From Acidobacteriota bacterium (lineage in GTDB: Bacteria; Acidobacteriota; Blastocatellia; Pyrinomonadales; Pyrinomonadaceae): a DNA stretch of 64,000 nt. The notes below the pieces were generated by a model. It had not been told where the DNA came from. It saw only the letters and a program-made list of their open reading frames with translations, and ran no database searches. Shown here one piece after another: positions 49,723-51,871 of the stretch (positions are counted from its first letter, which is position 1; the number at the start of each line of letters is the position of its first letter). Both the position numbers and the translations under genes were made by a program. The stretch lies in assembly GCA_003697135.1 (NCBI GenBank), contig RFGC01000038.1, positions 62,001 through 126,000 on the forward strand, written 5' to 3'.

Positions 49723-50676
49723 TTAATACCGAAGCACCTTGATTCTATCAGGTGGAAGGCCAATCACGCACTCGTCACCAACTTTAAGCCCTACAAGTCT
49801 CAAAACCAAAACCTCAATCGGAAGTCCTGAAGCATCAAATTCAACTCTTGTCGTCGAGCCGTGGAATTCTATCTTTGTTACTTTAGCTCTAATAAGATTA
49901 TCTTCCGGAAAAGAAGCACCACAGTGTATGCAAACTTGTTCGGGTCTGATTGCCAATGTAACATTCTGAAGAATCGAACCTAGATTTTTTCTTTCAACTT
50001 TGTCTGTCCTCAAACGATGATTGCCTTCAAGGGTTTGAAATTCTGGCATTTCCTCGTTACTGAAAGTTATTCTTCTTGCCGTTATAAGATTGCATCTTCC
50101 CAAAAGAGAAGCTGAAGCAACCGAATTCGGATTCTCATAAACCTCTTTCGGCGTGCCTTCTTGAATAATCTCGCCTTTGTCGAGAATTCCTATCCTGTCA
50201 CAAATCTTGAAAATTTCCTCCTCATTGTTAGTTACAAAAACAACAGCTAGATTCTTTCTTCTTGCGGTTTCTTCTAGTTTCTCAAGAGCTTCCTGACGCA
50301 TTTCACTATCGAAAGGCGCAAAAGGATTATCGAGGAGTAATAAGCCTTCGGCGTCTCTTAAAGCTTCCTCAAACTCAATCTTCCGCCGTTCGCTTTCTGA
50401 AAGAAACGGAGTTTTTTTGAACAAACTCTTCAAAAACGAATTCTTTTGCGGTGGCGAAGGGACGATTTTCGCTTGATTTATCGTTGAGTTTTCAAAAGAT
50501 ATTCTGCCCGTGAAGTCCTTTTCAAGCCCGGCTATTAGTCTCAAGATCGTTGACTTACCACTACAGGCACGCCCAACTAGACCGAAAATCTCACCACGAG
50601 AAACTTCAAAGCTTAAATCTCTTAAAACCCATTTGTTTGAATACCGCTTCGAGACTTTTTCTACCTTAAGAACCAT
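49723..50676 (-). CDS. ABC transporter ATPase with degenerate catalytic motifs and C-terminal TOBE-like domain
   Basis: A 317-residue protein that aligns by eye with CysA/PotA/MalK-type ABC ATPases. The P-loop GRACSGKST (residues 35-43) keeps the GxxxxGKS/T frame. The rest of the engine is lost: the signature is LSESE (92-96) instead of LSGGQ, the Walker B Glu is Asn in LLLLDNP (112-118), the switch His is Asn in FVTNNEEE, and Walker A to B spans 77 residues instead of about 115, so much of the helical subdomain and Q-loop is missing. The tail from about 200 includes a TOBE-like fold (AIRPEQVCIHCG to the end). It lies 10 bases downstream of the MCE-domain gene, with no permease gene. Probably binds but does not hydrolyse ATP. 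Confidence 0.85.
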   Translation of the reverse strand: MVLKVEKVSKRYSNKWVLRDLSFEVSRGEIFGLVGRACSGKSTILRLIAGLEKDFTGRISFENSTINQAKIVPSPPQKNSFLKSLFKKTPFLSESERRKIEFEEALRDAEGLLLLDNPFAPFDSEMRQEALEKLEETARRKNLAVVFVTNNEEEIFKICDRIGILDKGEIIQEGTPKEVYENPNSVASASLLGRCNLITARRITFSNEEMPEFQTLEGNHRLRTDKVERKNLGSILQNVTLAIRPEQVCIHCGASFPEDNLIRAKVTKIEFHGSTTRVEFDASGLPIEVLVLRLVGLKVGDECVIGLPPDRIKVLRY

Positions 50677-50686
50677 TTTCTAGATT

Positions 50687-51871
50687 CTAGAATATCTTCA
50701 GCTTGATTGTTAAGTATTTTTTCGGGTTTTGTCTAAAATCGTTCAGTAGCCTCGTGCTTTCGGTTGAAAATTGACTTATGTTAGCAGTTGTCTGGTTCAG
50801 ATTTTCGTAAAGAGTTTCATCAGTGAAGAGTTTTCCAACGGTGCCTTTCCCGGCCTTTATATCGGAAAGTAAGGAGTTTATCGTTGCTACAGAATTTTTC
50901 AAATCGTTGTAAAGAGCTTCATCTTTAAGCAGTTTTCCTGCAGTTCCTTTACCTTGATTCAGGTCTTGGAGTATTTTGTCGAGATTTTCAGCAACCGTAT
51001 TCAACCTGTGGGCCGCAATTCTTATTTCCTTTATAGCCTCGTTTGCTTCGTTGTAGAGCGAATCATCGCTGATTAACTTCCCTGCAGTTCCACGTCCTTG
51101 CCTCAACTCTGCTGAAATAGCTTCTAGCTGGCTTACGGTTTTATTGAGATTCTCATAAAGCGTTGGATCGTTTAGGAATCTTCCAGCACTACCTCGCCCG
51201 CTATTGAGATTATCAAGCGTGGTCTGCAATTTTATCATCGTTGTTTTGGCTTCGTTTATGGTTTGATCTAGGTTTCGGTAAAGCGATTCATCATTGATTA
51301 TTCTTCCTATCGTTCCTTCTCCTCGATTGGCTTTGTTGAGAATTTCGTTTACTGGGATAGCAAGCTTGTTTATTTGATTTAAGAGATCGTTTCCGGTTTG
51401 GGTTAATTGATTTATCGAGATGGCAGCGGTTGATTCGAGAATATGATTTTCCGACACAGGCTCTCCCTTCGCCGTGCCTGGCGTGATGTTAATCATCTTG
51501 TCATTTGCTAAAACGCTGGTAGCAACGAGTTGTGCAGTCGAATCGGTGCGGATTCTTTCCGTAATTGGACGGCCATCAATCTCTGAAGAAACACTCATCA
51601 CAGCTTCAACCTTTGCTTCGCTCGTGTCATCTGGCGGCAAGAATCTTACATCTTCGACTCTGCCTATCAGAATGCCTGCAAGTTGAACTTCGGCTCCGGG
51701 GCGCAATCCGTCGGCGCTAACAAAGCGCGCCCGCAGCCGCATTCTCTTCTCAAAAGGATTAAAGTCTCCCGAAGAATTGATAATCAAAAACGCTAACGCA
51801 AGCAACGTCAAAAAAACAAATATCCCAACCCGTAAACCACTCAACCCCAAATATCTTTGAGTCGTTGGCAT
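50687..51871 (-). CDS. MCE/MlaD-domain protein with five internal repeats
   Basis: Membrane-anchored substrate-binding component of lipid-transport (Mla/Mce) systems, 394 residues. One N-terminal membrane segment (GIFVFLTLLALAFLI) precedes the MCE domain (about 42-135: RARFVSADGLRPGAEVQLAG, GRVEDV, ITPG). The rest is helical and carries five copies of a motif G-x-G-T/S-x-G-[RK]-[LIF]-x3-D-x2-L-Y at residues 182, 223, 257, 305 and 339; the spacings (41, 34, 48, 34) differ by multiples of 7, as expected in a coiled-coil needle. The adjacent ABC protein is degenerate and no MlaE permease or MlaB is here. Confidence 0.88.
   Translation of the reverse strand: MPTTQRYLGLSGLRVGIFVFLTLLALAFLIINSSGDFNPFEKRMRLRARFVSADGLRPGAEVQLAGILIGRVEDVRFLPPDDTSEAKVEAVMSVSSEIDGRPITERIRTDSTAQLVATSVLANDKMINITPGTAKGEPVSENHILESTAAISINQLTQTGNDLLNQINKLAIPVNEILNKANRGEGTIGRIINDESLYRNLDQTINEAKTTMIKLQTTLDNLNSGRGSAGRFLNDPTLYENLNKTVSQLEAISAELRQGRGTAGKLISDDSLYNEANEAIKEIRIAAHRLNTVAENLDKILQDLNQGKGTAGKLLKDEALYNDLKNSVATINSLLSDIKAGKGTVGKLFTDETLYENLNQTTANISQFSTESTRLLNDFRQNPKKYLTIKLKIF

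Follow-up and report, generated by a model that had tools for sequence, protein, structure and literature searches.

A degenerate family of importer-type ABC ATPases, retained under selection in the Pyrinomonadaceae and very probably put to a non-transport use

The window analyzed here, a 64,000-nucleotide stretch of DNA from the 2.8-Mb genome of a member of the Pyrinomonadaceae (Acidobacteriota), encodes on its minus strand a degenerate MalK/FbpC-type ABC protein, the sole TOBE_2 protein of its genome (Table 1). Direct reading of the motifs bears out the first-pass annotation, which had described an ABC ATPase without catalytic machinery: the changes from LSGGQ to LSESE, from the Walker B Glu to Asn (N117), and from the switch His to Asn (N150) all read as it gave them; the approximately 40 residues that it reported missing from the helical domain number 41 (68 residues from Walker A to Walker B, versus 109 in canonical relatives); the frame is intact, running for 317 aa from an ATG without internal stops; and the TOBE-like tail is preserved as a full TOBE_2 domain (PF08402), which matches over the cut-off at positions 241 to 315. 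Its statement that the P-loop is kept holds, with one refinement: the Walker A Lys (K41) is present within GRACSGKST, as is the Walker B Asp (D116), but the second Gly of the loop is also lost (GRAC), and in L010, a protein from the same genus that is 62% identical to that of the window, the P-loop Lys has itself become Arg. Profile searches reflect the missing part. The Pfam ABC_tran model matches only over positions 1 to 59 of 137, and the NCBIfam models PhnT2, PotA, GlcV, and others give two-piece matches split at the deletion and far under their cut-offs; PhnT2, the best of them, scores 155 bits against a cut-off of 457.7, and no curated cut-off of the importer-ATPase group is passed. The oxyanion-binding TOBE model (PF03459) scores 15.1 bits on the tail (E = 0.028), below its cut-off of 22.3.

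Table 1. Features of the degenerate ABC gene and its upstream neighbor in the window (coordinates are window positions)
Feature	Position	Strand	Remarks
mlaD-like MCE gene	50687..51871	minus	ends 10 bp before the degenerate gene
CDS of degenerate MalK/FbpC-type ABC protein, 317 aa	49723..50676	minus	ATG start, no internal stop
Walker A / P-loop GRACSGKST, residues 35-43	50548..50574	minus	Lys present in 47 of 48 orthologues
Walker A to Walker B stretch, lacking Q-loop and helical subdomain	50344..50547	minus	68 residues vs 109
Signature remnant LSESE replacing LSGGQ, residues 92-96	50389..50403	minus	motif reading
Walker B LLLLDN, residues 112-117	50326..50343	minus	Asn117 in place of the catalytic Glu; Asp116 retained in 48/48
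D-loop Asp123	50308..50310	minus	kept in 48/48
H-loop position (FVTN), His replaced by Asn150	50227..50229	minus	His in only 1/48
C-terminal linker and TOBE/OB tail, residues 193-317	49726..50100	minus	most constrained part of the protein
GASFPEDN motif, residues 253-260	49897..49920	minus	near-invariant in the degenerate family

An AlphaFold2 model of the window protein, built with 41 family sequences, reached a pLDDT of 91.4; confidence drops mainly in the linker standing in for the helical subdomain (residues 61 to 90). The model aligns over its whole length (1 to 317) with MalK (2r6g, Z 29.1), Thermus thermophilus FbpC (9j4r, Z 26.7), and GlcV (1oxu, Z 26.5). Even for the most eroded member of the family (L076, the same gene as L017), the predicted core is still confident and the linker low-confidence. 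The RecA-like core thus persists in the absence of the helical subdomain. Domain-swapped dimerization is known for FbpC-type tails (PMC2896483), and by analogy a tail-held dimer of the degenerate protein is plausible.

Relatives above threshold were present in 74 of the 119 Pyrinomonadaceae genomes searched, 53 of which carry the degenerate form and 21 a canonical form, the two never occurring together (these presence/absence counts are approximate, given E-value thresholds and incomplete genomes). Carriers are soil and hot-spring bacteria. The same degenerate architecture recurs in 48 distinct full-length orthologues from about 10 genera, which we aligned with 17 canonical proteins. Outside the Pyrinomonadaceae, a sample of 396 genomes of the phylum yielded no family members, and none turned up among the 45 loci from a contig scan, whose records are nearly all from Acidobacteriota and whose queries were family-specific peptides that distant forms could escape. 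Within carrier genera, the degenerate gene is missing from some near-complete genomes (e.g., G067, 97% complete, and G006, 90%) and is thus dispensable.

The losses seen in the window are common to the family. The Q-loop, the helical subdomain, and LSGGQ are each absent from all 48 degenerate proteins; the Walker B Glu persists in 6 (replaced by Asp in 21, Asn in 15, Gly in 4, and Ser in 2) and the H-loop His in a single one. Set against this are the Walker A Lys (47/48), the Ser/Thr that follows it (45/48), the Walker B Asp, and the D-loop Asp (48/48 each). Over the 119 nucleotide-binding domain (NBD) columns that are invariant in canonical proteins and still present, median retention in degenerate members is 33%; the nucleotide- and Mg-binding residues top this ranking at 98 to 100%, and the catalytic and signature residues lie mostly at the bottom (Glu 12.5%, Gln 4%, His 2%, signature Gly 2%). 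Such a pattern is the one expected if binding, but not hydrolysis, were selected. There are exceptions: besides L010, a subclade of three proteins (L017, L074, and L078) has Arg or Gly at the Ser/Thr position after the P-loop Lys and a Walker A-to-B stretch reduced to 44 to 46 residues, and its members may have lost nucleotide binding itself. With the P-loop damaged in these four members, nucleotide binding cannot be universal in the degenerate family.

Maximum-likelihood analysis groups the degenerate proteins in a single clade (support 100/100), so that the losses, which the first-pass annotation had proposed to compare among relatives, are both common to the 48 orthologues and ancestral. 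The sister of this clade consists of two canonical ATPases from another genus (g4), whose tails already carry GASFPADN, indicating that the distinctive tail is older than the loss of the motor. Canonical genes mostly lie in the order of a divergent small open reading frame (ORF), solute-binding protein (SBP), ATPase, two-domain permease, and PIG-L deacetylase; in most degenerate genomes, the divergent small ORF is followed directly by the degenerate ATPase, with no SBP or permease at the locus. All 21 canonical genomes encode the orthologous permease and none of the 53 degenerate ones does; a few of the latter have only permease paralogues of 28 to 31% identity. The sequences thus show descent from the ATPase of an SBP–ATPase–permease importer operon, a single ancestral loss of the Q-loop, helical subdomain, and LSGGQ, and erosion of the Walker B Glu and the H-loop His. 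A near-basal member (L011; its position is approximate) keeps both Glu and His and lacks the Q-loop, helical subdomain, and LSGGQ, which suggests that the coupling part was lost first and that the catalytic residues eroded later.

Selection on the gene was assessed with Nei-Gojobori omega values over 34 degenerate pairs, with canonical pairs for comparison. Median omega in the degenerate pairs is 0.14 for the NBD, 0.22 for the Walker A-to-B stretch, and 0.08 for the tail (about 0.12 for the gene overall), versus 0.06, 0.08, and 0.16, respectively, in the canonical pairs. Because dS is saturated in many pairs, we also compared tail/NBD dN ratios of sister pairs: degenerate pairs have a median of 0.62 (12/14 below 1) and canonical pairs one of 2.58 (0/8 below 1; Mann-Whitney p = 2.5e-5), the canonical sister-genus pair being intermediate at 1.05. 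The comparison of the window protein with its congener L010 conforms to this, with a dN of 0.39 in the NBD and 0.25 in the tail. Constraint has thus been inverted rather than merely relaxed. No frame breaks occur in the 48 full degenerate sequences, and these intact orthologues, with omega of about 0.12, rule out pseudogene decay or an assembly artefact as the origin of the window gene. The first-pass annotation had named canonical ATPases at this locus in relatives, together with a dN/dS near 1, as what would speak against selection; canonical ATPases do occupy the ancestral locus in sister genera, but dN/dS here is ~0.1.

Selection for a non-hydrolysing role, as proposed from the first reading, agrees with the purifying selection found, and no member is at all likely to be catalytic. 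ABC domains need LSGGQ in trans to form their sandwich dimer, and the coupling of ABC ATPases to permeases runs via the Q-loop and helical subdomain; with all three gone in every member, hydrolysis by a homodimer and transport are very unlikely for the degenerate proteins, even where the Glu is kept. We are therefore highly confident that the protein is selected, does not hydrolyse ATP, and drives no transporter, and it has very probably taken on a new role outside transport. The more specific suggestion of a nucleotide sensor fares less well, since the binding residues are kept in 44/48 members but lost in 4, and the strongest constraint lies in the TOBE tail; a tail that binds a ligand or partner, ATP probably being a cofactor, fits better.

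As we picture it, the repurposed importer ATPase would be a pseudo-ATPase of the cytosol, probably still able to bind Mg-nucleotide but not to hydrolyse it or to couple to a permease, with the C-terminal TOBE (OB-fold) tail as its working part. The protein would dimerize through its tails, like MalK and FbpC; the GASFPEDN-containing tail would bind a small ligand or a partner; and nucleotide occupancy or ligand binding would change the shape of the protein, which would relay that state to another protein as regulators and sensors do, comparable to the restraint of MalT by idle MalK. MalK is known to sequester and restrain MalT (PMC10427625), and TOBE domains occur in regulators and in storage proteins (PMC11980592); no DNA-binding domain was identified in the degenerate protein. 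We consider the chances of a tail-centered sensor or regulator mechanism to be about even. Somewhat more tentatively, the family could constitute a lineage-specific class of soluble signaling proteins, in which an importer ATPase stripped of its motor and coupling parts uses the TOBE tail as a ligand-gated sensor and unhydrolysed ATP as a structural or signaling cofactor.

The tail is also the starting point of the foremost competing explanation, namely, that it serves to store or deliver a small ion or metabolite, which it would bind as do Mop, ModG, and Tub, and that the NBD is a mere folded scaffold. TOBE storage proteins are known (PMC11980592), constraint is tightest on the tail, and some members have damaged P-loops. 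We nevertheless regard storage or delivery as unlikely: the tail matches TOBE_2 (PF08402), with only the subthreshold hit to the oxyanion type (PF03459), and the P-loop Lys, Walker B Asp, and D-loop Asp, which a scaffold would not need, are kept in 98 to 100% of members. That same retention would suit the degenerate half of a heterodimer, paired with a canonical ABC ATPase encoded elsewhere and supplying one regulatory, non-hydrolysing site, and degenerate sites are indeed well known from type I exporters (PMC7756269). Against such a pairing, the absence of LSGGQ, the Q-loop, and the helical subdomain in 48/48 members would leave no usual contact with a permease and the partner's site uncompleted, and the window genome has no canonical TOBE_2 ATPase to act as a mate; this reading is quite improbable.

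A role with the neighboring MlaD-like protein in envelope lipid transport, confined to the window genus, draws on the gene following mlaD directly in both genomes of that genus (gaps of 10 bp and about 27 bp) and on mlaD having left the mlaEF operon there. We rate it as very improbable, given that all other genera have the gene elsewhere, usually beside a small ORF, that mlaD sits with mlaEF where examined, and that a normal mlaF is present in the window genome. Promiscuous ATPases are known in the MalK-type group, and the MalK-type fold would accord with a protein that still powers a different importer, as shared ATPases such as MsmX do; with the coupling surface (Q-loop and helical subdomain) and the catalytic residues gone and a cognate permease in 0/53 genomes, there is very little probability in this. 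Least probable of all is slow pseudogene decay following the loss of the importer, to which the lost importer genes, the faster evolution of the NBD than in canonical relatives, and the absence of the gene from some genomes might point; frames are intact in 48/48 full sequences at an omega of about 0.12, and across about 10 genera the tail is more constrained than in working ATPases.

Comparison with known systems places the reading of a tail-centered, non-transport protein among several partial likenesses. With the importer ATPases FbpC, PotA, and MalK, the degenerate protein has in common the whole-chain fold, P-loop, Walker B Asp, D-loop, TOBE_2 tail, and direct common descent; unlike them, it lacks the Q-loop, helical subdomain, LSGGQ, Walker B Glu, and H-loop His, has no SBP or permease partner, and shows constraint shifted from NBD to tail. 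The loss of the catalytic Glu, H-loop His, and signature, with nucleotide binding probably kept, resembles the degenerate sites of type I ABC exporters, but the exporter sites retain the helical subdomain, have a transmembrane domain fused or bound to them, and are paired with a canonical site, whereas the degenerate family retains nothing canonical or transmembrane. MalK, as the repressor of MalT, offers a parallel of a transporter ATPase regulating outside transport (PMC10427625); MalK does both jobs, and the degenerate protein can retain only the non-transport one. TOBE-only proteins (Mop, ModG, Tub, and ModE) likewise use the TOBE fold as the functional ligand-binding part, but they are of the PF03459 type and have no NBD, whereas the degenerate tail is a TOBE_2 domain with a distinctive GASFPEDN loop.

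To our knowledge, most of the pseudo-ATPases known from the ABC superfamily are the degenerate halves of transporters that work, and we found no described TOBE pseudo-ATPase in the open-access literature. Here, an entire orthologous family is without transporter, permease-coupling domain, and catalysis, yet is kept in about 10 genera. With canonical, working relatives in sister genera, the steps that led from motor to non-motor can be followed one by one and are testable on extant proteins. The automatic label "ABC transporter ATP-binding protein" would be wrong for the degenerate family.

Genomic context differs between the window genus and the remaining genera and thus yields no partner. In both genomes of the window genus (g1), the degenerate gene has moved directly behind the mlaD-like MCE gene, with which it is probably co-transcribed in this genus only; the adjacency may reflect either a connection with envelope lipid transport peculiar to this genus or no more than the capture of a promoter, and mlaD as a general partner is ruled out beyond this genus. 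The mlaD genes of the window genus (Table 1; L132 4644-6233) lie apart from mlaEF, which is on another contig, and mlaE, mlaF, and mlaD are contiguous in the other genera checked (L135, L136, and L137).

The divergent small ORF (about 90 aa, with a DAIPFVG-type motif and no Pfam match; e.g., L045 7532-7801, minus strand) is oriented away from both canonical and degenerate ABC genes and adjoins most degenerate genes and several canonical operons. It occurs in 87/119 genomes, some of them from genera that lack both ABC forms, and the window genus does not have it; it was accordingly rejected as a functional partner and is better seen as a syntenic neighbor than as an obligate one. A further conserved protein without a Pfam match (L045 6808-7548, minus strand, with homologues at 40 loci) is encoded near the degenerate gene in most genera; by eye, its product is probably secreted and coiled-coil. 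Upstream of the degenerate gene lies a strongly conserved intergenic element, ACTTGC..GATGACAANAGCATACT..TTTGCACG-N14-AAGTTYC, found at L012, L045, L061, and about 40 other loci and absent in the window genus. The element was rejected as a regulon signal or RNA leader, since genomes have essentially a single copy each, at this locus, and no conserved RNA fold was found. On its reverse strand it reads GGAAC-N16-CGTG, resembling an ECF-sigma promoter that points toward the divergent small ORF.
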